Of a stretch of DNA of 51,939 nt, positions 8,938 through 29,747 are shown in pieces. The position numbers were made by a program, and so were the translations under genes. Every line of letters begins with the position of its first letter. The first letter of the stretch is position 1. The notes under the pieces were generated by a model. It did no database searches, was not told where the DNA came from, and was given only the letters and a program-made list of their open reading frames with translations. This DNA is from Burkholderiales bacterium (GTDB taxonomy: Bacteria > Pseudomonadota > Gammaproteobacteria > Burkholderiales > Casimicrobiaceae): the NCBI GenBank assembly GCA_905339295.1, contig CAJPFI010000025.1:1-51939 (forward strand), given 5' to 3'.

Positions 8938-9828
8938 CTACTGCGTGTCGAACTCGACGGTCTCGGCCGGGTCCTCGTGGTAGGCATGGCCGAACGAGAT
9001 GCGGCCGCGGCCGCGCAGCGTGAACTCCTCGCGGCGCAGCTCCACTTCCTTCTCGCCCTGCACCGTGCAGTAGGTGCCGTTCGTGCTGTGGTCGATCAGC
9101 ACGAACTTGTCGCGCCGCCGCTCGATGCGGGCGTGCAGGCGCGACGCCATCCGGTCGGCGATCACCATGTCGCTCTGCGCGTCGCGGCCGAAGGTGTAGA
9201 GGTTGACGTCGGCGCCGAGCTCGACGCGCTTGTCGCCGTGCGCGAGCTTGAGCATCGCGGCACGGACCGCCGCGCGCGGCGCCATCGCGGTCAGCTCCTC
9301 GCGCGACTCCTGCCAGATCAGCTCGAACACCGCGATGTCGTTCTGCTTGCCGCGCACCGTGTGCGTGTCCTGCGTGCGCGTGCGCGAGCGCAGCGACGGG
9401 GACAGGATGTTGACCGTGTCGGCGGACAGAAGCGTCTGGCCGGCCTTGGCGAGCGACGTGAGGCGCGCCGCCAGGTTGACCGAATCGCCGAACACGTCGT
9501 TGCTGTCGTCGATCACCGGCCCGTAGTGGAAGCCGGCGTGGATCGCGAGCGGCGTGCCGCGGCTGGTCTTCATGCCCGACACCTGGGTCTGCATCGTGAT
9601 CGCGGCGTAGGCGGCGTTCGCGGCGTTCGGGAAGATCGCCATCGCCTCGTCGCCGATCGTCTTGACGATGCGCCCGCCGTGTTCCTCGCAGACCTGCCGG
9701 ATTACGTCGAGCGCGCGCGCGATCGTGGCGAGCGCCTCGGCGTCGCCGAGCGTCTCGTAGAGCCTCGTGCTTCCGGCGATGTCGGCGAACAGGATCGCTG
9801 CCTGTCGCTGAGCGGGGGCGGTTTCCAT
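8938..9828 (-). CDS. Class III adenylate/guanylate cyclase with C-terminal FHA domain
   Basis: This 296-residue cytoplasmic protein has a class III nucleotide cyclase domain (about 8-180). The first metal Asp is in ILFADIAGSTRL (D16), the second in KTIGDEAMAIF (D60), and the FGDSVNLAARL segment supplies the transition-state Asn (N118) and Arg (R122). All look intact, so it should make cAMP or cGMP. The last third (about 205-290) is a forkhead-associated domain: FGR, then ASRLHARI, then DHSTNGTY, the usual Arg, Ser-x-x-His and Asn-Gly-Thr landmarks for binding phosphothreonine. The divergent neighbour is a Ser/Thr kinase, an obvious candidate partner for this FHA domain. Confidence 0.88.
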   Translation of the reverse strand: METAPAQRQAAILFADIAGSTRLYETLGDAEALATIARALDVIRQVCEEHGGRIVKTIGDEAMAIFPNAANAAYAAITMQTQVSGMKTSRGTPLAIHAGFHYGPVIDDSNDVFGDSVNLAARLTSLAKAGQTLLSADTVNILSPSLRSRTRTQDTHTVRGKQNDIAVFELIWQESREELTAMAPRAAVRAAMLKLAHGDKRVELGADVNLYTFGRDAQSDMVIADRMASRLHARIERRRDKFVLIDHSTNGTYCTVQGEKEVELRREEFTLRGRGRISFGHAYHEDPAETVEFDTQ

Positions 9829-9855
9829 GCAGTGCGCGTCGTCGTCGAGCCCGAG

Positions 9856-9883
9856 AGTATAGGGGATAGGCAGGCAGCATCAA
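9856..9883 (-). promoter_or_regulatory. Likely sigma70-like promoter of the cyclase-FHA gene
   Basis: Read on the minus strand, TTGATG (9883-9878) and TATACT (9861-9856) are separated by 16 bases. The start codon at 9828 is 27 bases beyond the -10 hexamer. The TATACT has five of six consensus bases. Confidence 0.5.
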
Positions 9884-10040
9884 GACCGGGCGTCAGCCTC
9901 GGACCCCGGCCGGGAGGCGTCAATGCGAACATTCCCGCCGATCCGCCGCCACGCGGGGCTTTGCCGGAGAGCGCTTGACGCAGTATCCTCGCCGGGCGCG
10001 GGACCGGGCCACGGACCCGCCGCGGGGACGGAAAACGACA

Positions 10041-11684
10041 ATGGAACGGCTGGGACGCTATCAGATCCGCGAGATCATCGGCGAAGGCGCGATGGCGCGG
10101 GTCTACAAGGGCTACGACCCGGAGATCGACCGGGAGATCGCGATCAAGCTGCTGAAAAGCCAGCTTGCCGACGACGACCAGTACCGGATGCGGTTCCTGC
10201 GCGAGGCGAAGGGCGCGGGCACGCTGTCGCACCCCAACATCGTCACGATCTTCGACGTCGGCGTCGACGGAAAGCACCCGTACATCGCGATGGAGCTGGT
10301 CGACGGCATGACGCTGACCGACCTGATCCGCTCCGACCAGCGCATGTCGAACCGGGACGTCGTGGAGATCGGGATCCAGCTCACGCGCGCGCTCGACTAC
10401 GCGCACAAGAAAGGCATCATCCACAGGGACATCAAGCCCGGCAACATCATGCTTGTGTCGTCGGGCAACCAGGTCAAGGTGACCGACTTCGGCATCTGCC
10501 GCATCGACGGCGGCGACCACGAGCTCACGCAGCACACGCAGCTGGGCGACGTCCTCGGGACGCCGAACTACATGTCGCCCGAGCAGGTGCTGGGCCAGAA
10601 GGTGGACTCTCGCTCCGACCTGTTCTCGGTGGGCGTCGTCCTCTACAAGCTCGTGACCGGCCAGCTCCCGTTCGAGGGCGACTCGATCATCAGCGTGGCG
10701 ATGAAGATCACGCAGACCGATCCGCCCACGGTCGAGAAGCTCCGCCCCGACGTCCCGCTCTCGCTGCGCCGGGTGATCGAACGCTCGCTCAAGAAGCAGC
10801 CCGACAAGCGCTTCCAGACCGGCGAGGAGTTCGCGCAGGCGCTGATCGGCGTGGCGCGCGAACTCAAGGACGAGGAGGAGAAGAAGGGCAAGGGCAAGGG
10901 GCTGTCGCTCTCGGTCCGCTGGGCCGGGATCATGGCGGCGATCGTCGCGGTCACGATGACGCTCACCGCCGGCATCCTCTACCAGCGGCAGTACGCCGCG
11001 ATGCTCGACCAGGTGAAGGGCTACGGCGGGTCGCTCGCCAAGTTCATGGCGACGCAGAGCGCGGTGCCCCTGCTCGCGGAGGACTACGCGGCCATCGACG
11101 TGTTCGTGCAGGAGACCCTCGCCAGGCAGGACTTCCCGTACCTGATCGTGGCCGACGACGAGGGGGTGGTCCGCGGCAGCAACGACCCCAAGCAGGTCGG
11201 CCAGCGATACGCCGCGCCGGCGTCGACGCTCGTCGGTTCCGAGGACTCGGAAGTCACGGTGCGCACGCACGAGCTTGCGAGCGGCAACGTGCTCGACTTC
11301 GCCGTGCCGATCCTGTTCCAGAAGCGGCCGATCGGCTCGGTGCACCTGGGGATCCACGAGGCGCCGCTCGCGAAGGTGGCCAACCTCGTCTACGTGCTGC
11401 TCGCGATCCTGACGCTCGTGACCGTGGCGGCCGTCGCGGCCGGCACCTACCTGCTCGCGCGCCGCATCGCGGCGCCGATCCGCGTGCTCAAGAGCTCGCT
11501 CGACGAGATCGCGCACGGGCGCTACGACGTGCGCATCGGCGAGACGCGCAAGGACGAGTTCGGCGAGCTCTACATAGCGTTCGACAAGACAGCCGAGGCC
11601 CTGGAGGCAAGACATGAACCCGCGACCGCGTCCGCTCACGCCACCGCAGCCGCCGCCGAGCCGGTCGCCCCGCAGCCCGGCTGA
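10041..11684 (+). CDS. Membrane Ser/Thr protein kinase with periplasmic sensor and terminal HAMP domain
   Basis: This is a 547-residue Hanks-type kinase. The kinase domain (1-270) is complete: GEGAMARV glycine loop (G14-G16), catalytic Lys36, HRDIKPGN (H128-D130), DFG at D149 and an SPE in the activation segment. A basic linker leads to a span at about 293-314, a roughly 130-residue periplasmic region with cache-like text (FPYLIVADDEGVVRGSN), a second span at 447-472 and a HAMP domain (473-525) ending in DEFGELYIAFDKTAEALE. No output domain follows the HAMP. The ATG at 10041 is chosen because it starts the conserved RYQIREIIGEG region directly. The 3' end overlaps the deacetylase gene by 71 bases. 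Confidence 0.9.
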   Translation: MERLGRYQIREIIGEGAMARVYKGYDPEIDREIAIKLLKSQLADDDQYRMRFLREAKGAGTLSHPNIVTIFDVGVDGKHPYIAMELVDGMTLTDLIRSDQRMSNRDVVEIGIQLTRALDYAHKKGIIHRDIKPGNIMLVSSGNQVKVTDFGICRIDGGDHELTQHTQLGDVLGTPNYMSPEQVLGQKVDSRSDLFSVGVVLYKLVTGQLPFEGDSIISVAMKITQTDPPTVEKLRPDVPLSLRRVIERSLKKQPDKRFQTGEEFAQALIGVARELKDEEEKKGKGKGLSLSVRWAGIMAAIVAVTMTLTAGILYQRQYAAMLDQVKGYGGSLAKFMATQSAVPLLAEDYAAIDVFVQETLARQDFPYLIVADDEGVVRGSNDPKQVGQRYAAPASTLVGSEDSEVTVRTHELASGNVLDFAVPILFQKRPIGSVHLGIHEAPLAKVANLVYVLLAILTLVTVAAVAAGTYLLARRIAAPIRVLKSSLDEIAHGRYDVRIGETRKDEFGELYIAFDKTAEALEARHEPATASAHATAAAAEPVAPQPG

Positions 11685-16124: not shown

Positions 16125-17015
16125 CTAGTTGCCGTACTCCCGCTCTTCGCGCGCGGGGCAGGCGGGCACGCGGCCGTAGTGCCCGACGCAGTGCTCGATG
16201 CGCAGCGACTCCTGGCACACGGTGCGTGCGATCGTATCGTCCGCCGGGCAGCGCGCGAGCGCATCGGCAAGCCGCTGCCAGCGATCCGGCGCGGCCTTCG
16301 GCATGGGCGCCTGTGCGACGACAACGGGCGGCAGACGCGGGGCGTCCACCGGTCCGAACGCGCTCAGTCCGGGCATCGACGCGCCGCCTGCGTTCGCCGG
16401 GGCGGGCGCACGCGGCGCGGATGCGGACGCCCCTAGTGCGGCGTCAGCGGCGCGGGGCAGCGCGATGCTTGAGGGCAATGTGCGCGGATCGAGCGTTTCG
16501 CGCATGAGCGCGATGCCTGGCGCGGGCGTGCGCGCCGCCGCGCCGGCGGGCCCGGCCGGCGCCGCCCCGGAACCCGGCTTCGACCGGCTGTCGGTCGTCG
16601 CCGACGCGTTGATCGCCTCGGCCTCCGTGCGGGCGGGCGCGGCGAGGCTGCGCGGCGCGATGGCGTCGGCGTCGCCGTTCGTGCGCGCCATCCACGCGCC
16701 GGACGCGCCGACCACGCCGGCGGCCGCGAGCACCCATGCGAATCGCGACACGCGCGCGAGGCGGCGCGGCGATTCCGCCGTGCCGGCCGTCCCGACCGGG
16801 ACGGCCGGGACGGGATTCACCCGCGGCGGTCGCTGGCGCGGACGGCGCCTCGGCACGATCGCCTCCGACACCGTCGTGTCGCGCGCCCGCTTGAGCGCCG
16901 ACTTGCACGGCGCGCAAAGGCGCTCGCCCGGCGCGGTGGGCTGGCGGCAGATCGAGCACGTCGTCGATCGGGGCGGGCGGCGTATGTCCGGCATGGGCGT
17001 GCGCACGGCCGGCAC
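16125..17015 (-). CDS. Paralogue A: zinc-ribbon membrane protein with C-terminal four-Cys domain
   Basis: This 296-residue protein has three parts. Residues about 18-40 hold a zinc ribbon with two Cys-x-x-Cys pairs (CSIC and CAPC). A single membrane span follows (FAWVLAAAGVVGASGAWMA), then a long Ala/Pro/Ser-rich linker. The last 50 residues form a compact domain with the spacing C-x10-C-x8-C-x9-C-P, a preceding RWQRL helix and a closing YGN. The same domain ends two more proteins in this window, at 21508-22518 and 24868-25533. The likely topology is zinc ribbon inside, cysteine domain in the periplasm with two disulphides. Role unknown. It is divergent from the lipoprotein gene at 17134. Confidence 0.7.
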   Translation of the reverse strand: MPAVRTPMPDIRRPPRSTTCSICRQPTAPGERLCAPCKSALKRARDTTVSEAIVPRRRPRQRPPRVNPVPAVPVGTAGTAESPRRLARVSRFAWVLAAAGVVGASGAWMARTNGDADAIAPRSLAAPARTEAEAINASATTDSRSKPGSGAAPAGPAGAAARTPAPGIALMRETLDPRTLPSSIALPRAADAALGASASAPRAPAPANAGGASMPGLSAFGPVDAPRLPPVVVAQAPMPKAAPDRWQRLADALARCPADDTIARTVCQESLRIEHCVGHYGRVPACPAREEREYGN

Positions 17016-17034
17016 CGGCCGTCGTTGTACGCTA

Positions 17035-17053
17035 CTATGACATTGTCATCGCA
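17035..17053. promoter_or_regulatory. Dyad element ATGACA-T-TGTCAT type
   Basis: ATGAC and GTCAT half sites face each other around ATT, making a 13-base near-perfect dyad within a 19-base element matching 15 of 19 positions of 3332-3350. It lies between the divergent genes starting at 17015 and 17134. An operator for a dimeric regulator is the simplest reading. Confidence 0.4.
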
Positions 17054-17133
17054 CTCCGGAATTGCCGCCCGTCGGCTCCCGGCGCCCGATCGCCGGATGG
17101 GCGAACGCGCGCCGCTTCAGCTAGCATCGCCCG

Positions 17134-17823
17134 GTGAACCCCGCCTACCCGATCGCGCTTTGCGCGGCCGCCGCCCTGCTCTCCGGCTGCGAGCGCGTCG
17201 CGGCGCTCGCCACCGGCACGCCGTTCGCGAGCTTCGAGGCGCGCTGCGCCGCGCTCGAGGACGGCCGCATCGATGTCGTCCGCGTCCCGAGCGAGGTGAC
17301 CGAGGACTATGCGCACGATCACGCCGACCTCGCGCGGCTCGCGGAGTCCGCCTCCCCCAGGCACCGCACCGTGGGCCTCACGCGCGCGAAGTTCGGCTAC
17401 CGCTCGACCCTCGAGCTCGACGGGCTCGAGGACCCGCGCGGCGCCCGATCCTGCGCACGGCCCCGCGTGCGCATCGAGGTCGCCGCGTCGTCGATGACCG
17501 TCTATGTCGCGCGCGAGTTCCGCGGAGATCCGTGCCGCGAGCCGCTCATCCTCGAGCACGAGCACAGGCACGTCGACGTGTTCGAGCGCTACGCCGACGA
17601 GGCCTCCCCGGCGCTCGAGCGCGAGCTCGATGCGCTCGTCGGACGCCGCGTCCGCCACGGCGCGACGATCGCCGAGGTGCAGCAGGCGCTCTCCGCCGAG
17701 CTCACCGCGCACCTCGAGGCGTTCATGGCGAGCGCGCGCGACGAGCTCGCCGCGCGGCACGCGGCGGTCGACACGCACGAGGAGTACGGCAAGCTCGCGC
17801 GCATGTGCGGCGCCACGCCCTGA
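17134..17823 (+). CDS. Lipoprotein, putative metallopeptidase-like (HExxH)
   Basis: This 229-residue protein has a short lipoprotein signal (ALLSGC, Cys near 19). In the second half, ILEHEHRHVDVFERYADEA carries HEHRH, which fits HExxH, followed by a helix with acidic residues. The pattern resembles DUF922-like proteins with a putative zinc site. Three or four other Cys may form disulphides. The GTG start at 17134 is chosen because the signal peptide begins there. Its 3' end is 21 bases from the convergent creA-like gene. Peptidase activity is inference only. Confidence 0.55.
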   Translation: MNPAYPIALCAAAALLSGCERVAALATGTPFASFEARCAALEDGRIDVVRVPSEVTEDYAHDHADLARLAESASPRHRTVGLTRAKFGYRSTLELDGLEDPRGARSCARPRVRIEVAASSMTVYVAREFRGDPCREPLILEHEHRHVDVFERYADEASPALERELDALVGRRVRHGATIAEVQQALSAELTAHLEAFMASARDELAARHAAVDTHEEYGKLARMCGATP

Positions 17824-17844
17824 CGCCTGCGCGGCGCTGCGGCG

Positions 17845-18333
17845 TCAGCGCGGCGCGAGCGGGATCGCGTGGCCGAGCACCGGCAGCGCGGTGACCGCGT
17901 TGTCCGGGTGCCCGTCGATCAGCCGGTCGGCGTAGGTGAGGTAGACCAGCGTGTTGCGCCTGGCGTCGACGATGCGCACGACGCGCACGTGCTTGAACAC
18001 GAGCGACGCGCTTTCGCTGAACACCTCCTCCTGGCGCGGCAGCGGTTCACGGAACGCGATGGCGCCCGCCTGCCGGCACGCGACCGAGAAGCGCGCCGGG
18101 TCCTCCGCCAGGCCGAGCGCGCCCTTGATGCCGCCGGTCTTCGCCCGCGAGACGTAGCAGGCGACGCCCGACACCTTGGGGTCGTCGAACGCCTCGACGA
18201 CGACCTTGTGGTCCGGCCCGAGCAGCTTGAACGCGGTGTCGACCGAGCCGATTTCCTCGGCGTTCGCGATCCCGAGCCCCGCCGCCGCCGCGATCGCGGC
18301 CCATCCCGCACTCCGTCGTCCCGCGCCACGCAT
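17845..18333 (-). CDS. creA: CreA family periplasmic protein
   Basis: This 162-residue protein has an Ala-rich signal ending near NAEEIGSVDTAF. The family's recognisable stretch is present: DHKVVVEAFDDPKVSGVACYVSRAKTGGIKG(A)LGLAEDPARFSVACRQAG, then FKHVRVVRIVD and NTLVYLTYADRLIDG. CreA-like proteins are found across Proteobacteria and their function is not known. It is divergent from the uracil/xanthine permease gene, with a 110-base gap. Confidence 0.9.
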   Translation of the reverse strand: MRGAGRRSAGWAAIAAAAGLGIANAEEIGSVDTAFKLLGPDHKVVVEAFDDPKVSGVACYVSRAKTGGIKGALGLAEDPARFSVACRQAGAIAFREPLPRQEEVFSESASLVFKHVRVVRIVDARRNTLVYLTYADRLIDGHPDNAVTALPVLGHAIPLAPR

Positions 18334-18443
18334 CGTCGTCCCTCCGCATCACCGGAACCGATCGTAGCAGGAGCGTCCCGACGACATTGACCGGCCCTAG
18401 AATGCTGCGACCGCGGCGAGGCGACCGCGCAAGGGAGGAGACG

Positions 18444-19727
18444 ATGCGTACAGAAGGCTTGTTCCCGGCATGGCCGGTGAAGACAGTGGGCGTGATCGCG
18501 CCCGACGAGCGGCTGCCATGGCCGCAGACCGTCGCGATGGGCGCGCAGCACGTCGTCGCGATGTTCGGCGCGACCGTGCTCGCGCCGCTCCTGATGGGCT
18601 TCGACCCGAACGTCGCGGTGCTGATGTCGGGCGTCGGCACGCTGGTGTTCTTCGCGATCACGCAGGGGCGCGTGCCGAGCTACCTGGGCTCGAGCTTCGC
18701 GTTCATCGGCGTCGTGATCGCCGCGACCGGCTACGCGGGAAGCGGCGCGAATGCGGCCCTGCCGGTCGCGCTCGGCGGCATCGTCGCGTGCGGGCTCGTC
18801 TACGCGCTCGTCGGCTTCGCGGTGATGGCGAGCGGCACTGGCTGGGTCGAGCGCCTGATGCCGCCGGTGGTCACCGGGGCGGTGGTCGCCGTGATCGGGC
18901 TCAACCTCGCGCCGATCGCGGTCAAGGGCGCGACCGGCACGCCGTTCGACGCCTGGCTGGCGGTCGTGACCATCGTGTGCGTCGGCGGCGTCGCGGTGTT
19001 CACGCGCGGCCTGGTGCAGCGCCTGCTGATCCTCGTGGGGCTCCTGATCGCATGCGTGATCTACGCGGCGCTCGCCAACGGCATGGGACTGGGCAAGCCG
19101 ATCGAGACCGCCGCGATCGCCGCGGCCCCGTGGATCGGCGCGCCGCGCTTCGCCGCGCCGGTGTTCGACGGCAACGCGATCGCGCTGATCGCGCCGGTCG
19201 CCGTGATCCTCGTTGCCGAGAACCTCGGTCACCTGAAGGCCGTCGCGGCGATGACCGGCCGCAACCTCGATCCGATGATCGGCCGCGCGTTCGTCGGCGA
19301 CGGCGTCGCGACGATGATCGCCGGCAGCGTCGGCGGCACTGGCGTCACGACCTACGCGGAAAACATCGGCGTGATGGCGGTCACGAAGATCTACTCGACG
19401 CTGGTGTTCGTCGTCGCGGCGCTGATCGCGATCCTGCTCGGCTTCTCGCCCAAGTTCGGCGCGCTGATCCAGGCGATTCCGGCTGCCGTGCTGGGCGGCG
19501 TGTCGATCGTGGTGTTCGGCCTGATCGCCGCCGCGGGCGCGCGCATCTGGGTCGACAACAAGGTCGACTTCTCGGCCAACCACAACCTGATCGTGGCTGC
19601 CGTGACACTCGTGCTCGGCGCCGGCGACTTCACGCTCGAGCTCGCCGGATTCACGCTGGGCGGCATCGGCACGGCGACGTTCGGCGCCATCCTGCTCAAC
19701 CTCGCCCTCGCGCCGCGCCCCCGCTAG
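18444..19727 (+). CDS. Uracil/xanthine permease family transporter
   Basis: This 427-residue protein belongs to the nucleobase-cation symporter 2 family (UraA/RutG-like). Visible signs are the opening TVAMGAQHVVAMFGATVLAPLLMGFDP, the QGRVPSYLGSSFAFIG segment, VIGLNLAPIAVKGA, VAVILVAENLGHLKAVAAMTGRNLDPMIGRAFVGDGVATM and GGTGVTTYAENIGVMAVTK. The NLGHLKA and TYAENIG motifs hold the substrate Glu residues of this family. It should import uracil or a related base with protons. The ATG at 18444 follows a strong GGGAGGAG ribosome site. Confidence 0.92.
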   Translation: MRTEGLFPAWPVKTVGVIAPDERLPWPQTVAMGAQHVVAMFGATVLAPLLMGFDPNVAVLMSGVGTLVFFAITQGRVPSYLGSSFAFIGVVIAATGYAGSGANAALPVALGGIVACGLVYALVGFAVMASGTGWVERLMPPVVTGAVVAVIGLNLAPIAVKGATGTPFDAWLAVVTIVCVGGVAVFTRGLVQRLLILVGLLIACVIYAALANGMGLGKPIETAAIAAAPWIGAPRFAAPVFDGNAIALIAPVAVILVAENLGHLKAVAAMTGRNLDPMIGRAFVGDGVATMIAGSVGGTGVTTYAENIGVMAVTKIYSTLVFVVAALIAILLGFSPKFGALIQAIPAAVLGGVSIVVFGLIAAAGARIWVDNKVDFSANHNLIVAAVTLVLGAGDFTLELAGFTLGGIGTATFGAILLNLALAPRPR

Positions 19728-19788
19728 CGCGGGTGGACACGCGCCGCGGTTCGCGGTTGAATGGGGCACCCGTTCCGGAGATCCGCCG

Positions 19789-20256
19789 ATGGACGCGACC
19801 CGACCCAGGCACCGCCGCCTTGCCGCCATCGTGGCGGCCGTGCTCGCCTGCGGGACGCTGGCCGCGCCCGCGCTCGCGGCCCCGCCCTGCTACACGGTCT
19901 ACGACGCCCGGGGCGGGATCGTCTACCGCGGTCACGCGAGCCCGTTCGACGGCGCGCTCGATCCGGCGTCGCACGGGCGCGCGGCAATGCGCGCCCGCGG
20001 CGAGCACCTCGTGTTCTTCGAGGCGGACCACTGCGTGCCGGTGGCGCGCGCCGGCGGGTCCGGCGGCCGGCCCCTGACCGCCGACGACATCGTCGCGGAC
20101 TTCCCCGGCCGCGCGCCCCCGGGTACCGGCGGAGTCACCGGGGCGGCCGGCGGAGGTGCGCCGATGTCCGCGGGCCCGTCGTTCGGCGGCCCTGCCGCAC
20201 GCATCACCGCGCCGGCGAGCAGCGCCATCCAGACCCGCGTCGGCGCGTACCGCTGA
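19789..20256 (+). CDS. Small exported protein of unknown function
   Basis: This 155-residue protein has a signal peptide ([21 protein letters not shown]). The mature start [26 protein letters not shown] followed by [14 protein letters not shown] has one Cys pair likely to be oxidised in the periplasm. The second half is Gly/Ala/Pro-rich and probably flexible. I do not recognise a family. It lies 61 bases after the permease gene and may be co-transcribed with it. Confidence 0.55.
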
Positions 20257-20375
20257 TCCGCCCGGATTCGACGCATCCGCGGCGGCGCGTCCGGCGCGCA
20301 TCGGCGATCGCCCGTGACACGCGCGCTCGCGCGCGACTACACTCGCGGTCGTTCCCACAGCACCGCGACTCCTCC

Positions 20376-21125
20376 ATGAGCCCGAACAAGATCGCCATCG
20401 TCACCGGCGCCGGCACCGGCATCGGCCGCGCCGTCGCGCTTGCCCTCGCCCGCCACGGCTGGCACGTCGCGCTCGCCGGGCGGCGCCGCGAGCCGCTCGA
20501 GGCAGTCGCCGCCGAGGCGCCCGCGGGCGGCACGCGCGCGGTGCCGACCGACGTCGCCGATCCCGCATCGGTCAGGGCACTGTTCGACGAGACGGTGCGC
20601 ACATGGGGGCGCGTGGACTTCCTGTTCAACAACGCCGGTGTCGGCGCCCCGCCGATCCCGCTCGAGGATCTGACGTTCGACCAGTGGAAGAACGTGGTCG
20701 ACATCAACCTGACCGGCTCCTTCCTGTGCCTCCAGGCGGCGTTTCGCGCGATGAAGTCCCAGACGCCGCGCGGCGGGCGCATCGTCAACAACGGATCGAT
20801 CTCCGCGCATGCGCCGCGACCGAACTCGGCGCCCTACACGTCGACCAAGCACGCGATCACCGGATTGACGAAGGCGGCGTCGCTCGACGGCCGCAAGTAC
20901 GACATCGCTGTCGGCCAGATCGACATCGGCAACGCCGCGACGGAGATGGCCGCGAAGATGGCGACCGGCGTGCCTCAGGCGAACGGTCAGGTCGCGATCG
21001 AGCCGCTGATGGACGTCGCGCACGTCGGCGACGCGGTGCTCCACATGGCGGAACTGCCGCTTGCGTCGAACGTCCAGTTCATGACGATCATGGCGACGAA
21101 GATGCCCTTCGTCGGCCGCGGGTGA
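20376..21125 (+). CDS. Short-chain dehydrogenase/reductase
   Basis: This 249-residue protein is a classical SDR. It has the nucleotide-binding [10 protein letters not shown] (T-G-x3-G-x-G), an AGRRRE stretch after beta-2 typical of NADP preference, [17 protein letters not shown] with the catalytic Ser and the YTSTK catalytic Tyr-x3-Lys. The late segment [14 protein letters not shown] replaces the usual PGxxxT loop. Substrate cannot be inferred. It starts with ATG at 20376. Confidence 0.9.
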
Positions 21126-21507
21126 CGCGGGCGGCCGGAGCGCGACGACCGGACGCGGTGCCGCGCGCCGCCACGGCCCCCCGGCAACCGTCGCCACGCC
21201 CGTCGGCGTCCCAGGCTCGGCCCGGGTGAACGACCCGGGCGGCGATCGCGGCCGGCGTCGCCCTGCACGGGACCGAAACGACGCAACCTTCCAGTCGGGG
21301 GCGACGGCGCGACGCCGCGCGCAGGGTGACGCAGGGCCCACTCCCGAGGGCGGGCACCGGGCCGACGCCGCGGGTCGCGCGTCCGGAAGGGTGGACGCAC
21401 GGACGCAACGTGGGGCATCCAGCGATTGGCTCGAGTACGCCAGCGCGCTGCGACGACGTGTTCCGCGGGGATTCCCCGGGGCCCGTCGGCGCTGGCGTTG
21501 ACCCGCC
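21126..21507. other. Intergenic stretch with one hairpin
   Basis: No frame here looks like a protein; translations are Arg/Pro/Gly-rich. The hairpin at 21220-21240 is the only structure seen. The stretch separates the end of the SDR gene from the end of paralogue B. Confidence 0.4.
21220..21240. terminator. Hairpin after the SDR gene
   Basis: GCCCGGGT at 21220-21227 pairs perfectly with ACCCGGGC at 21233-21240 around a 5-base loop. It sits about 95 bases after the SDR stop. It lacks a T run, so it could be a terminator or only a processing or protection stem. Confidence 0.4.
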
Positions 21508-22518
21508 CTAGTTCCCGTAGTCCGCCTGCCTCCCGCTCGGGCACTCGCTCGCGCGGCCCCACCAGCCTTCGCAGTAGCGCATGCGCACGCGCTGACCGCA
21601 GATCAGGTTCTCGAACAGGCCGCCCGACGGGCACGCGGCGATCTCCTCGCGCATGCGCTCCCAACGCGTCTGCGGTGCCGCGCCCGCGTGCGCCACCGCG
21701 GAGCTCGCGACGACCGGTGCGGGCACGGGAGCCGGAAGGACGGTGACGGCGCGACGCGCGCGCTGCCCGGCGCCCGGCGCGGGCTTGCGCACGGATCCGA
21801 TCGAGCGTGCCATCGGACGCGCCTGCTGCCGCGTCGCGGCGCGAGCCGCAGCCGCCGCGGCCGCCCCGTCGGCGGGCGGCAGCGCGTCGACGGTGTCGCC
21901 ACGCTCCCGCGTCTCGGCGTCGGGCGTCGCGCTCGCGACGGGCTCCGGCGCGGCGCCGCCGGTTCGCTCGATCCGCTCCTTCGGCGTCACGACCGCGGGC
22001 GCGACCGTCACGCGCGCGACCTCGTCCTGCAGGCCGCCGATGCGCTCGACGAAGACGAACGTGGCGAATACGAGCGCGCCAAGCGCGCTCCAGGCGACCA
22101 ATCGCTCTCCGCGCAGGCTCGCGCGGCGCGGCTCGAAGATCGGCTCGACCGGTTGCGGGTCGCGCGGGCGCGGAATCGGCGGCGGTCTGGACGGTGCGGT
22201 GGACACCGGCGCATCGGCCGGTCCCGGCGCGGCGGTGCGGCCAGCGTCCGACGCGACGGTCGTCGTGCGGGCGGCCGGCGTGGAGTCGGCGCGACGTGAC
22301 GGGGGCGGCGGAACCATCGGGGCGTGAGGGCGGGCTCGCGTGTTGCCGGGTGCGCGCTCGGACCGCAGGACCGAGCCGCAACGGGAGCAGACCCTGGCCC
22401 CCGGCGCCAGGCGAACGCCGCAGTGCCGGCGTGACGCGCCTGCGGCGGCGGGCGCGTCGACACCCTCGCCCTTGGTCAAGGGTTGCCGCCCCGCGTCACT
22501 CCCGACACCGTCCACCAC
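21508..22518 (-). CDS. Paralogue B: membrane protein with C-terminal four-Cys domain
   Basis: This 336-residue protein has a partial zinc ribbon near the N-terminus (RRHCG then CSRCG) in which one expected Cys is missing. A span (LVAWSALGALVFATFVFV) leads to a helical, then Ala/Pro/Arg-rich linker. The C-terminal 50 residues have the same C-x10-C-x8-C-x9-C-P spacing as paralogues A and C, with RWERM in front and the identical YGN end of A. The only start in frame before the ribbon is GTG at 22518, so the start is uncertain. It lies downstream of the subtilase on the same strand, 266 bases away. Confidence 0.65.
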   Translation of the reverse strand: MVDGVGSDAGRQPLTKGEGVDAPAAAGASRRHCGVRLAPGARVCSRCGSVLRSERAPGNTRARPHAPMVPPPPSRRADSTPAARTTTVASDAGRTAAPGPADAPVSTAPSRPPPIPRPRDPQPVEPIFEPRRASLRGERLVAWSALGALVFATFVFVERIGGLQDEVARVTVAPAVVTPKERIERTGGAAPEPVASATPDAETRERGDTVDALPPADGAAAAAAARAATRQQARPMARSIGSVRKPAPGAGQRARRAVTVLPAPVPAPVVASSAVAHAGAAPQTRWERMREEIAACPSGGLFENLICGQRVRMRYCEGWWGRASECPSGRQADYGN

Positions 22519-22645
22519 ACTCTCGCCCCCGAGCGCAATCTCGAAGCAACTTCCGCACCGCGGCGTCGCCGACGAACGACGACCGCCCGCCGGGGTCCCG
22601 GCGGCGAGCGCTCGGCCGCGCAGCGGGGAATCGCCTCCGCGCCCG

Positions 22646-22766
22646 GCGACCGAAGGGCCGCCCCGAGGTCGCCTGCCCCCTCAGGGGGGACGCGTGCCGG
22701 CACGCGTCGGACGGATCACGGCTGCCGCCCCGGGGATGCGGTCCCTTGGAGGAGGCGAACTTCGCC
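22646..22766. repeat. Cluster of four inverted repeats, REP-like
   Basis: Four dyads follow each other between the subtilase and paralogue B: 6-base arms at 22646-22651 and 22667-22672, a short GC stem at 22676-22688, a perfect 18-base palindrome at 22690-22707 and a 13-base dyad (GGCGAA-C-TTCGCC) at 22754-22766. They resemble extragenic palindromic repeats common in GC-rich Betaproteobacteria. A copy count elsewhere in the genome would be needed to call it a repeat family. Confidence 0.4.
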
Positions 22767-22784
22767 CGCTTCGGCGGGGTCGCG

Positions 22785-24626
22785 CTACCCACGCGCACCT
22801 CGCGCCGCCGCGACCGCGTTGCGCGGATGGACGAGCACGCGGCGCCCGTCGGCCGTCCTCTCGGCGGTGTCGCGGATGATCGCGATCACCTGCGGCGGCG
22901 AGAGCCCCGGATTCACCGCGAGTAGCTTCGCGGCGAGATTGGTCACCTGCGGCGCGGCCATCGACGTGCCGGACTCGGGGATGCGCTCGCCGCCCGGGAT
23001 CACGCTGTCGACGAGGTAGCCGTTGGCGTGCACCACGACGGTCTTGCCGTAGCTCGTGAACGACGCCTCGTCGCCCGCCTTGTCGACCGCACCGACGGTG
23101 ATCACGTTGGGCAGCGCGATGTCGGCCGGGACCGCTTCGGCGAACGTCGAGTCCGCGTTCTCGTTGCCCGCCGCGGCGACGAACAGGATCTCCGGCGCGG
23201 ACGACATGGCCCGGACGAACGCGTCCTTGCCGATGTCGAACCAGTCGCGCGCGATCGTCCGTCGCTCGTCGGGCGATTTTCCGATGGCGCACTGCTCGAG
23301 CTGGCCCTCGACGTCGCCGACGCTGCCGCCGAAGCTCATGTTGACCACGCGCACGCCGTGGCGGCGGAAGAACCCGACGTAGGCCTGCAGGTTGCGGGCG
23401 TCCTTGTGCGCGAGCTCGAGGCTCGGGCACGGATCGGGCTGGAGCGTGTACCCGAACTCGATGCGCGCGTTCACCAGCCTGACGTACGGATTGCCGGCCG
23501 CGGCGATGCCGGCGACGTGCGTGCCGTGGATGTAGTTGCCCGCGGCGGAGAGTTCCTCGATCGCGGACCTGTACTGGTCGGGCCGGAGGTTCGACAGGAA
23601 CTGCTTGACCTCGGAAGCCTCCGCGCTGTCGACGTTCGCCTGCAGGTCGGAGAAGCCCTTCAGCCGCGACTTCATGCGCGGCAGCCTGTCCCTGAGCTCC
23701 GCCGGGATCGGGAAAAGCTCGCCCGTCGCCGGATCCGAGTACCTGTCGAACGCGATCATCGCCGGCGAGCCCGATGCATCGCGAACGACACGGTCGCCGA
23801 AGAGCGCGGTGTCGACGCCGCTGTCCCAGATCGCCACGACGACCGGGGCGTATCCGCCTCCCGCGGGCAGCGTCGCCTCGCGCGCCGCCCAGATGTCCGC
23901 CTTCTCGACCCGGTTCGCCGCCAGGTACGCGCCGTACGCGTCGGCCAGCGTCGACTTGAGCGGAAGCTGCACCGCGAGCCGGTACTTCGCGGCGACGATC
24001 CCCGGCGCGAAGTCGGACGACAGGCTGCCCGACCGGTCGACGATCGGCTGGATCACGTCGCGCAGCTGGCCCAGGACAAGCGCCTCGCTGATCACCTCGG
24101 CCGAGGTCCTGGCGCCCTTCACGTTGTTCTCGACGACCGCGTATGGCATGGCGTCGAGCTCGGCGCGCAGGCGCCGCGCGACCTCGGCACGCCAGCCATC
24201 GCCGCCCGTCGCGCCGGTCGCGCGCCGCGCCCCGTCGATCGCGCGGAGCAGCATGCCCGACGTGAGCTTGTCCGCGGGCTTCTCCTCGAGCGCACGGATG
24301 CGCGCGAGCTTCGCCATCGCGTCGTCGTGGCGTCCCTCGAGCCAGTCGAGCTGGAGCAGCGTGCCGAGGAGCTGGCGCTCGGTGGCCTTGTCCGCGATCT
24401 CGTAGCGGTCCAGCACGGACTGCGTGTCGCGACGCACCGCGGCGGCGAACGGCGCGAATGCCGCGGGATCGGCGAGCAGGCGCTCGACCTTGCCGTCGAT
24501 GCGGTACTCGAACCTCGGCAGGTCGGCCGCCTTCTCGATGCGCTGCTTCGCGACCTGGGCCGGCGCGGACTGCGCCAGCGCGAACGTCGCGGCGAGCGCC
24601 GCAAGGGAAACGCGCAGGAATGCCAT
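22785..24626 (-). CDS. Secreted subtilisin-like serine protease (S8)
   Basis: This 613-residue protein has a signal peptide (LAALAATFALAQSAPAQ) and a long N-terminal region (about 25-255) likely to be a prodomain. The catalytic triad is visible: Asp in VVVAIWDSGVD (D268), His in YIHGTHVAG (H367) and Ser in ESGTSMAAPQV (S555), with the oxyanion Asn in VAAAGNENADS. The roughly 100 residues between Asp and His exceed the usual spacing, so an insert is present. It should be exported and act in the periplasm or outside. The ATG at 24626 is chosen because it starts the signal peptide. It lies between two genes for the four-Cys paralogues on the same strand. Confidence 0.9.
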   Translation of the reverse strand: MAFLRVSLAALAATFALAQSAPAQVAKQRIEKAADLPRFEYRIDGKVERLLADPAAFAPFAAAVRRDTQSVLDRYEIADKATERQLLGTLLQLDWLEGRHDDAMAKLARIRALEEKPADKLTSGMLLRAIDGARRATGATGGDGWRAEVARRLRAELDAMPYAVVENNVKGARTSAEVISEALVLGQLRDVIQPIVDRSGSLSSDFAPGIVAAKYRLAVQLPLKSTLADAYGAYLAANRVEKADIWAAREATLPAGGGYAPVVVAIWDSGVDTALFGDRVVRDASGSPAMIAFDRYSDPATGELFPIPAELRDRLPRMKSRLKGFSDLQANVDSAEASEVKQFLSNLRPDQYRSAIEELSAAGNYIHGTHVAGIAAAGNPYVRLVNARIEFGYTLQPDPCPSLELAHKDARNLQAYVGFFRRHGVRVVNMSFGGSVGDVEGQLEQCAIGKSPDERRTIARDWFDIGKDAFVRAMSSAPEILFVAAAGNENADSTFAEAVPADIALPNVITVGAVDKAGDEASFTSYGKTVVVHANGYLVDSVIPGGERIPESGTSMAAPQVTNLAAKLLAVNPGLSPPQVIAIIRDTAERTADGRRVLVHPRNAVAAARGARG

Positions 24627-24867
24627 CGATCCAGTCTCCGGTGGGGGAACGCTGCCGGCGGCCGCGGTCCCCGGATGGGCCGGGCAGTCTATCCGAAGAT
24701 GCGCGCCCGGGAAGGCGGCCGCGCGCCCGATCCGACCGGACGGTCCGGTGCACGACGAAACGCGACGCCCCACGACCAGGCGTCCGTGCTGCGCGGTCGC
24801 TCGCCGCCGTCGCGTCCGCTCGGGCAATCGCGTCCTGGCGCCGCCCGGTGCCGCCGCCCCGAGCGGG

Positions 24868-25533
24868 TCAACTGCCGCCCGGGCATTCCGGGACCGATCC
24901 CCAGTGACCGTCGCAGTAGCGCGCCCTGACGCGCTGCACGCACACGACGCGCGGGATGACGCTCGTGTTGGTGCAGCGGGCGAGCTCGGCGCGCATCTGC
25001 GCCCAGACCTCGGCGCCTGCGATCTCGACCGCCGCGCCACCCGGCGCCGAGTGGCCCGGTTCCGGCGCCGCGGCCAGCGGCGAGACCGCCAAGCGCTCCG
25101 CCGGCGGCGCGGGCACGACGCGCTCGCCCGCGCGCGGCGAATCCGGACTCCAGGGCTCCGCCGGGACCTCCGGGACGGAGCCTGTGTCGATCCCGGCGGT
25201 CGGGTCGGGCGTCCGGACCATCGGCCCTTCCGGCTGCAACGGCGTCGCAGGCCTGAGCACGTGCCGCGACGCTTCCTCGAGCGCGGCGCGTGCCGCCTCG
25301 CGCGCGTTTCGCGCTTCGTCAGCGAGCGAGGCTGGCGCCGACCCGTGCGCTCCGGGCGGCTGGGCGCGGTCGCGCAGCGCCAGCGACGCCACGCCGCCAA
25401 GCGCACCCAGCACGAGGAGCGCGGCGAGGGCGTACAGGGTTCGAATGCGCCGCGGCGCGCTGGCGTAGGCAGGCACGGCCGAAGCGGCTGCCCCGGCGGC
25501 GCTCGGCGGGTTCGACGGGGATGACGCGGGCAC
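24868..25533 (-). CDS. Paralogue C: short membrane protein with C-terminal four-Cys domain
   Basis: This 221-residue protein lacks a zinc ribbon. After a Ser/Pro/Ala-rich start, a basic RRIRT stretch leads to a membrane span (LYALAALLVLGALGGVASLAL), then an Ala/Pro linker. The last 50 residues are the same domain as in A and B: VWAQMRAEL, then C-x10-C-x8-C-x9-C-P, with RARYCDGHWG. The GTG start at 25533 is supported by GAGAGGA seven bases upstream. The gene is 241 bases upstream of the subtilase on the same strand. Confidence 0.7.
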   Translation of the reverse strand: MPASSPSNPPSAAGAAASAVPAYASAPRRIRTLYALAALLVLGALGGVASLALRDRAQPPGAHGSAPASLADEARNAREAARAALEEASRHVLRPATPLQPEGPMVRTPDPTAGIDTGSVPEVPAEPWSPDSPRAGERVVPAPPAERLAVSPLAAAPEPGHSAPGGAAVEIAGAEVWAQMRAELARCTNTSVIPRVVCVQRVRARYCDGHWGSVPECPGGS

Positions 25534-28169: not shown

Positions 28170-29747
28170 TCACGCCGCGCTCACGCGATTGCGCCCTTCC
28201 GCCTTGGCGCGGTAGAGCGCGGCGTCGGCGCGCTCGAGCAGCGACTTCGCCGTGTCGCCCGCGGCGGCGTGCGCCAGCCCGATGCTGACGGTCACTGTCG
28301 GCGCGCCGTCTTCCGCGTGCCGCTCGATGGCGGCGCGGATGCGTTCGCACACGCCGGCCGCGTCGCCGGGATCCGCGTCCGCGAACACGATCGCGAATTC
28401 GTCGCCGCCGAACCGCGCGGCGAGGTCGGTGCGCCGCAACGCCTGCGCGAGCACGCCCGCGATGCGCTGGAGCACGCGATCGCCGGCGACGTGCGAGACC
28501 TTGTCGTTCACGTCCTTGAAGTGGTCGCAGTCGATGATCGCGAGCGCGCAGCGTGCCCCGCCGTGCGCGAGCAGCGACGCAAGGACACGGTCGAACGCGC
28601 GCCGGTTGCCGATGCCGGTCAGCGGATCGCGCTCGACCTCGTCCGACAGCGCCTCGGTCTCGGCGCGGAAGTGGTCCGCCTCGCGCCGCGCGCGCTCGCG
28701 GTCGAGGCGCAGGCCGGACAGGCGTGCCCGCTGCTCGCCGATGTCGGCGGCAATCTCCCGCTCGAGCGCGTGGTGGCGCTTGTAGTGCGCGAGCGCGTCG
28801 GCGTTGCGGTCCGCGCGCTCGAAGGTCTGCGAGATCTGCAGGTGCACGCTGCGCAGCAGCGGCTTCGCCCGCTGGGCGGCGCCGATCGCGTACGCCTGCT
28901 CGAGCGAGGCGAGCGCCGCCGCGATGGCCCCGAGCTCGCGGTCGCACTCGGCGAGGCTCACGAGCGCGTAGCCCTCGGACAGCAGGTCGCCGGACGCGCG
29001 CGTCTTGTCGAGCGCGCGGGCCGCCCACCGGCGGCCCTCGATCCAGTCGCCCCGCTCGATCATCACCGCGCCGAGGCTCGACTCGGCCGCCGCGATCGCC
29101 GGCAGCTCGCCCTCCTCGTTCGCGACGTCGAGCGCCGTGCGGATCATGTCCTCCGCGTTGGCGAGCGCGTCGGCCTTCGCATCGGGGTCCGCGCCGCGAC
29201 ACGACTGGTAGATCGCTGCGCCGAGCGAGTTCGCGCACTCGCAGATCGCGCGCGGTGCGCCGCTCTCGAGCGCGAAGCCGAATGCGCGCTCGAGCGTCGA
29301 CACGCCGGCGACGTGGCCGCCGATCTCCGCGAGCGCGACGCCGAGCACGCGGTGCACCGCGGCGAGGAGCTCGCGGTCGCCGATCCTGAATGCCCGATCG
29401 ACCTCGTTTTCGACCACCGAGATCGCGGTCTCGGTGTCACCGATGCGCAGAAAGCCGGTGCCCAGCGCGAGCGCGGCCTCGACCGAGAGCCGGGCGTCGT
29501 CGAGCGCCTCGGCGCGCGCCTGCACGTCGAGCGCGCGCCGGATCGACGACTCGAACGCGGCGTCCTGGTGATCGGCCTGGGCCAGCGCGAGCGCGGACCA
29601 CGCCGCGACCTCCGCGTCGTCGCACGCCAGCGCGAGGTCGAGCGCGGTCGTCGCCGCCTCGCGCGCCTGCGCGACGCGGCGCGCGGACAGCTGCTCGAAG
29701 GCGTTGCCCAGCGGAGTGCCGGCGAAGGCCGGCGGAATGCGCGCCAT
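28170..29747 (-). CDS. Diguanylate cyclase with N-terminal TPR array
   Basis: This 525-residue protein has a long alpha-helical region of TPR-like repeats (residues about 1-345), for example LALAQADHQDAAFESSIRRAL and ALGTGFLRIGDTETAISVVENEV. A coiled-coil-like segment (RERARREADHFRAETEALSDEV) leads to the GGDEF domain: DPLTGIGNRRAFDRVL, DCDHFKDVND and ARFGGDEFAIVF. The GGDEF motif is intact, so it should make cyclic di-GMP. No membrane span is seen. The start at 29747 precedes the first TPR-like helices; the frame is longer upstream but the extra part is Arg/Pro-rich. It is 43 bases downstream of the sulfotransferase gene on the same strand. Confidence 0.88.
   Translation of the reverse strand: MARIPPAFAGTPLGNAFEQLSARRVAQAREAATTALDLALACDDAEVAAWSALALAQADHQDAAFESSIRRALDVQARAEALDDARLSVEAALALGTGFLRIGDTETAISVVENEVDRAFRIGDRELLAAVHRVLGVALAEIGGHVAGVSTLERAFGFALESGAPRAICECANSLGAAIYQSCRGADPDAKADALANAEDMIRTALDVANEEGELPAIAAAESSLGAVMIERGDWIEGRRWAARALDKTRASGDLLSEGYALVSLAECDRELGAIAAALASLEQAYAIGAAQRAKPLLRSVHLQISQTFERADRNADALAHYKRHHALEREIAADIGEQRARLSGLRLDRERARREADHFRAETEALSDEVERDPLTGIGNRRAFDRVLASLLAHGGARCALAIIDCDHFKDVNDKVSHVAGDRVLQRIAGVLAQALRRTDLAARFGGDEFAIVFADADPGDAAGVCERIRAAIERHAEDGAPTVTVSIGLAHAAAGDTAKSLLERADAALYRAKAEGRNRVSAA

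Follow-up and report, generated by a model that had tools for sequence, protein, structure and literature searches.

Three membrane proteins with a four-cysteine tail

The window analysed here is the whole of contig CAJPFI010000025.1 (51,939 nucleotides; C25) from the 4.03 Mb, 60-contig genome of a Burkholderiales bacterium (assembly GCA_905339295.1, family Casimicrobiaceae). Three minus-strand open reading frames (ORFs) within it encode proteins A (16125..17015), B (21508..22518) and C (24868..25533), which a first-pass annotation, made from the sequence alone, had described as membrane proteins sharing a C-terminal domain with four cysteines. An ORF check found all three frames open at these coordinates, and each element of that description was recovered: the spacing C-x10-C-x8-C-x9-C-P, a tryptophan upstream of the domain and a G-x-[YW]-G core in all three proteins, a common YGN terminus in A and B, a single clear hydrophobic span in each hydropathy profile, and a zinc ribbon ahead of the span that is full in A, partial in B and absent from C. 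The start codons are uncertain (for A, GTG at 17015 or the internal ATG at 16994), and since the gene finder misses or shortens some Ala/Pro-rich genes (~73% GC), architectures were read from stop-to-stop frames.

All three proteins end in a tail of the type known from TagY, an accessory protein of type VI secretion systems (T6SSs). In protein A, a ribbon of the form CSIC-x10-CAPC (16905..16958, like all features here on the minus strand; DZR_2, E 0.0046, 17.2 of 27 bits) precedes a membrane span with basic residues on its N-terminal side (16686..16742; hydropathy 1.57), an Ala/Pro linker and the four-cysteine domain (16128..16283). Protein B retains a ribbon remnant with three cysteines (22378..22422; Zn_Ribbon_1, E 7e-4, 19.7 of 25 bits), which like that of A scores below the Pfam cut-off; at its span (22045..22101; hydropathy 1.97) the motif RGERLVAW is invariant in the four aligned B-group rows, and its domain lies at 21511..21666. 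Protein C consists of a span (25375..25431; hydropathy 2.31), the linker and the domain (24871..25008). In each protein the linker measures about 120–130 residues and contains no cysteine.

The tails of A, B and C form one homologous domain of about 45 residues, as sequence comparison shows. Pairwise BLASTP gave E values of 5e-12 (A/B), 1e-13 (B/C) and 2e-10 (A/C), with 9, 16 and 14 identical residues, respectively, among 38 non-cysteine positions. With the cysteines removed, similarity remained far above chance (z 7.6, 9.6 and 8.0 in the same order), and none of 100,000 shuffles reached any of the observed scores; both lines of evidence agree with the first-pass claim of a shared domain. Three instances of C-x10-C-x8-C-x9-CP no more than 14 residues from a stop are present in the six frames of the window, exactly those of A, B and C, and none in 40 Markov-1 simulated windows. 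A search of the genome returned three domain matches, all in the window.

The copies of Pfam, NCBIfam and PHROGs searched hold no model covering the domain, and a search of PDB sequences returned a single hit, ascribed to chance (E 0.69). The Fe-S family Fer4_19 matched 16 residues of B (E 6e-4, 20.2 of 24 bits) in one of 37 members, falling short of a score above the cut-off with the cysteine ligands covered. Twin CX9C (CHCH) proteins carry two C-x9-C pairs, one per helix; the C-x10-C-x8-C-x9-C spacing found here does not correspond to them. In the literature searches, the TagY papers were the only recognised descriptions of such a domain.

Kinship with TagY and distribution of the domain

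A profile of 37 domains taken entirely from the window's bacterial family (A2) found proteins of T6SS clusters at 1.4e-8 to 5e-8, with an hhalign value of 97.6%, which shows by sequence that the window domain is kin to their tails. The first-pass statement that no named family could be assigned is partly overtaken: it stands as far as models are concerned, but the domain has kin in the tails of T6SS-cluster proteins that fit TagY. In the excerpted text of PMC6612558, TagY is encoded upstream of tagX in reverse orientation and has one span, a low-complexity linker and a tail of about 40 residues with four cysteines that is predicted to be periplasmic; the authors of that paper suggested that it holds an Fe-S cluster, binds metal or senses redox state. 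TagX belongs to the VanY-type peptidases (pfam13539) and is encoded in T6SS clusters (PMC5061870, likewise in excerpt).

Architectures were read in 75 rows, comprising 44 rows from family loci (the window's three included) and 31 rows from later loci, one of which (L137) is again from a family genome. By tblastn, the fetched piece carried both TssM and TagF for ten of the 75 rows, and an M15 peptidase as well for nine of these ten; in seven of the ten the domain gene adjoins the M15 gene in opposite orientation. Around one such copy (L170), Pfam identified TssM (IcmF domains), VgrG, TagF and the M15 peptidase; in Paraburkholderia largidicola (AP028202.1) the gene is annotated as a 'hypothetical protein' within a TssH-TssA-OmpA-TagF-TssM cluster. 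By place and build these relatives fit the published TagY, a name that rests on position and anatomy compared by description. Several of these clusters also encode a protein of about 500 residues (cluster c6; L170:11143-12687) whose N-terminal part has hydrophobic stretches and which weakly matches a 3-oxoacyl-ACP synthase model (E 3.5e-5); this protein may be TagZ.

The window's proteins share with TagY the four-cysteine C-terminal region of about 40 residues, found by A2 and hhalign, and the single span with a long low-complexity linker after it. The short N-terminal region with two conserved motifs was not found in them: A has a ribbon in its place, B part of one, and C has neither. On reading, all three lack the RILANLEG-like motif of several T6SS-located relatives. 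Nor was a setting like that of tagY, in a T6SS-1 cluster opposite tagX, seen for them, with no VipB match in the genome and no T6SS family among ten neighbouring genes scanned. Cysteine spacing also differs: all ten T6SS-located rows are among the 13 with C-x10-C-x4-C, the other three (L137, L171 and L178) not being near T6SS genes on the pieces examined. Across the 75 rows the spacings were 10-8-9 (35 rows), 10-8-11 (13), 10-4-9 (11), 9-8-9 (10) and 10-4-8 (2), with 10-8-8, 10-8-10 and 10-8-12 in single rows and one further row cut by a contig end.

At E <= 0.001, A2 placed the domain in 28 of 64 family genomes and 18 of 22 genus genomes, the window's own included; two of the 28 family matches (G028 and G070) looked spurious on reading. 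Of 399 genomes sampled from the order, 26 matched. A second order sample (completeness 90 or more), searched with a wider profile that includes two T6SS-cluster rows (A4), gave 34 of 399, four of them (E 5e-4 to 7e-4) taken on score alone; the weakest matches of both order samples include spurious ones. The class sample yielded two of 274 and the phylum sample one of 299, the own genome. The large samples score only part of the first-look candidates, so misses are possible; within the limits of these searches the domain appears centred on Burkholderiales. Seven loci were dropped as spurious (L088, L089, L109-L112 and L165), and the weak L166/L178 (E 0.014 with A2) was retained. A genome-contig search added one relative only, and a plasmid search found no match for the window-type domain and six Paraburkholderia records with the T6SS-type domain, two of which were examined.

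With VipB (PF05943) as the sole T6SS marker, and with most genus genomes being incomplete drafts, no VipB was found in the window's genome, and a scan of ten neighbouring genes at the locus found no T6SS family. VipB occurred in one of 22 genus genomes (G014, where the domain is also present), so that 17 of the 18 domain-bearing genus genomes, the window's among them, lacked a VipB match. Across the family VipB was present in 14 of 64 genomes, 12 of them in a single genus (g2) in which no credible domain was found; VipB and a credible domain coincided in G014 and G082. From these data the window's proteins are assigned to a T6SS-free branch with a zinc ribbon, one span, a cysteine-free Ala/Pro linker and a TagY-type tail.

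Conservation, duplication and neighbourhoods

The ribbon is a regular part of this branch. All four ribbon cysteines of A are kept in nine of nine aligned A-group rows, and B must have lost its first one, because its three aligned orthologues have CRLCG. Of the 40 family rows that passed a crude length filter, four others truncated at contig ends having been left aside, 37 have a ribbon ahead of the span; the exceptions are window B with its three remaining cysteines, window C and a 117-residue fragment. Among the 31 later rows, three have ribbons, and in two relatives from other families (L119 and L136) the ribbon scores above the Pfam cut-off. The linker is cysteine-free in all 44 family rows and 29 of the 31 others. 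In the orthologue alignments (nine rows for A, four for B) the C-terminal domain and, except for window B's first, the ribbon cysteines are conserved, and the linker drifts. The C-terminal end reads [YHRQN]-G-[NQG] in 28 of 44 family rows, including the YGN ends of A (16128-16136) and B (21511-21519); C does not fit it.

The first-pass annotation took three copies within 9.4 kb as a sign of duplication. Local copies are indeed common (among 22 family genomes with more than one match, 15 carry a pair or more on a single contig, about 11 kb apart at most, and seven have theirs on different contigs), but the duplication is not recent, as each copy groups with orthologues in relatives. In a tree built on few columns, A joins the copies of G001 and G015 (support 98/87) and then that of G004 (98/72), B joins its counterparts in these three genomes (98/97), and C joins the G004 copy (92/71), a grouping that is not firm. 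Since each copy pairs with its own orthologues, with good support for A and B and weak support for C, the duplications are older than these species.

Gene order agrees with the tree placement. The A copy is flanked by orf17134 and a LysM gene, and the B copy stands by an SDR gene, in all four cases compared (the window, G004, G015 and G001); DUF2652 adjoins the A copy in the window and G004. An S8 (subtilase) peptidase (22785..24626, minus strand; PF00082, E 7.8e-32) lies between C and B, and the order C-S8-B is common to the window and G004; this gene is treated here as a neighbour, not as a part of the system. C lies by DUF1631 in the window, and the G004 contig ends at that point. In G015, which yielded no copy C, a 47-residue S8 remnant between the B orthologue and DUF1631 (L034:16840-16980) has the appearance of a deletion scar. 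The idea of an operon partner was rejected, the neighbours not being common across lineages.

Elsewhere, 11 domain rows, all of one family (f4), lie within about 270 bases (by match ends) of peptide release factor 3, a gene named by reading of its sequence; a 36% match of the release factor 3 query 8.4 kb away in L176 was excluded from this count. Second copies in two f4 genomes, G198 (L127) and G294 (L130), are not behind release factor 3; according to sequence reading, those of L127 lie near paired lipoyl-domain genes and a gene for a product of 902 residues; genes of similar size are present in L130. Upstream, at 8941-11681 in the window, are a cyclase-like and a kinase-like gene, also named by reading, which some relatives keep next to the locus too (clusters c31 and c32, four loci each). 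An ARAGORN call of tRNA-Ala(cgc) (97 bases, 29535-29631) falls within the called ORF 28173-29747 and is probably false.

Interpretation and comparison with known systems

We favour, with a probability of roughly 0.55, a reading in which the tail is the disulphide-stabilised binding tip of a T6SS-free envelope adaptor, locally duplicated in the genus. A, B and C would be single-span inner-membrane proteins whose N-terminal ribbon, in A and ancestrally in B, is cytoplasmic, as the basic residues N-terminal to the span suggest; such a placement is the usual reading of a zinc ribbon before a single span. The cysteine-free linker would then cross the periplasm to the tail, most likely a small helical hairpin with two disulphides formed there, which may act as a binding or sensing tip, coupling a ligand or partner in the envelope to the cytoplasm via the ribbon. 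In T6SS-1 bacteria one branch (TagY) would have been recruited into the secretion cluster, and in the window's genus the T6SS-free branch would have duplicated locally and diverged.

The placement of the tail in the periplasm, proposed by the first-pass annotation, gains support short of proof from a relative in G441 in which the domain comes last, after two ribbons, a span and a CAACH cytochrome-c segment (Cytochrome_CBB3, E 1.1e-5, 26.1 of 27 bits). Haem is joined to c-type cytochromes in the periplasm, so a domain beyond this segment should be periplasmic as well. In G322 a separate cytochrome c gene stands beside the domain gene, and in both genomes, which belong to two distant families, the domain gene adjoins that of a protein with several spans and a zinc ribbon at its C-terminus (L119:8185-9312 and L136:6776-7885; BLASTP 3e-26). 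Two AlphaFold runs, with different first sequences among the same five, each predicted two helices (pLDDT 80.3 and 77.9; pTM 0.58 and 0.53); Foldseek and VIA-align found no significant fold match for the predicted domain. The models would place Cys 2 and Cys 3, nine residues apart, on one helix without bringing them together, and by helix geometry the likely pairs would be 1-2 and 3-4.

Several observations weigh against this reading. Outside the family, domain and T6SS often go together: VipB was found in 20 of 27 domain genomes, a proportion for which an order base rate for comparison is lacking, and in 10 of the 17 among them whose domain gene is not in a T6SS cluster. Far T6SS rows (f8, f35, f29 and f57) score only 0.05-8.6 with A2 and are tied in by A4 (E 3e-8 to 6e-5 per genome), spacing and the tree. 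The rows were recruited with four-cysteine profiles, so cysteine invariance is partly selected; neighbourhoods vary by lineage, leaving no shared partner; and the cytochrome-segment relative is one protein, just below the Pfam cut-off. In excerpted sources, TssD secretion was not significantly altered in a tagY mutant ('results not shown'; PMC6612558), and a TagY-like protein of Ralstonia (R. solanacearum) lacks the cysteine-rich domain (PMC11481896).

Alternatively, the four cysteines might serve as periplasmic ligands of a transition metal or an Fe-S cluster, a possibility raised by the authors of the TagY paper (PMC6612558, in excerpt). Their invariance and the relative with a cytochrome-like segment would suit this, but the domain has no CxxC, its commoner spacings are 10-8-9, 10-8-11, 10-4-9 and 9-8-9, the models keep Cys 2 and Cys 3 apart on one helix, and the short Fer4_19 hit in B is the sole Fe-S match in Pfam; we hold it to be unlikely. 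A thiol-redox sensor, in which one or both disulphides open under stress and the ribbon relays the signal, was another option named for TagY in the same excerpt and finds some encouragement in the cytochrome c segment of G441 and the cytochrome c gene of G322. That link amounts to two genomes, however, a CxxC redox motif is missing, and four invariant cysteines suit a structural role equally, which makes a sensor of this kind quite doubtful.

Very little speaks for orphaned parts left after loss of a T6SS: homology to T6SS-cluster proteins and the missing VipB match would fit such a relic, yet the domain is kept in 18 of 22 genomes of a genus whose mostly incomplete drafts gave a match to VipB, the sole T6SS marker used, in one genome. 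Moreover, drift is seen in the linker but not in the conserved domain and ribbon, several copies are retained, and the zinc-ribbon N-terminus of A and of the B orthologues occurs in none of the ten T6SS-located rows. A chance or convergent cysteine spacing in Ala/Pro-rich tails, conceivable for a short domain in high-GC sequence, is contradicted by the BLASTP scores and simulated windows and, for A, B and C, refuted by the shuffles. A broader version of the adaptor reading, speculative and rather improbable, would make the TagY-type domain a general Burkholderiales periplasmic receptor older than its T6SS use, one that reports the state of the envelope, be it peptidoglycan or electron-transport redox, across the membrane to a zinc ribbon. 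T6SS-1 would have borrowed it for the timing of firing, and the window's genus would have expanded it into a set of three receptors.

The kinship bears on TagY itself, a conserved, little-studied T6SS-1 accessory with, in the excerpt of PMC6612558, one published mutant without a secretion phenotype. Since the domain also occurs on zinc-ribbon proteins in a mostly T6SS-free genus and, in other lineages, is encoded behind the release factor 3 gene or fused to a cytochrome-c-like segment, its job is suggested not to be secretion as such. The domain as defined here lies outside the Pfam and NCBIfam copies used, and the window's proteins would offer small soluble versions of it for structural and binding work.

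SPOR proteins such as FtsN are envelope proteins with a peptidoglycan-binding periplasmic part. The periplasmic part of the T6SS accessories TagN and TagV is, according to excerpted literature, known or proposed to bind peptidoglycan, TagV being an outer-membrane lipoprotein. All three are analogies to the four-cysteine envelope proteins, with no sequence relation found and none searched for. Zinc-ribbon membrane proteins with DZR or Zn_Ribbon_1 N-terminal caps likewise carry CxxC..CxxC before a single span, but A and B score below the curated cut-offs, C is ribbonless, and the C-terminal domain is outside those models. With TagY (the BCAL0353 type of T6SS-1), the window's proteins share a homologous four-cysteine tail, one span and a long low-complexity linker; they differ from it in a genome without a VipB match, in the zinc ribbon that in A replaces TagY's short conserved N-terminal motifs, in C-x8-C where the ten T6SS-located rows have C-x4-C, and in their presence as three paralogues.

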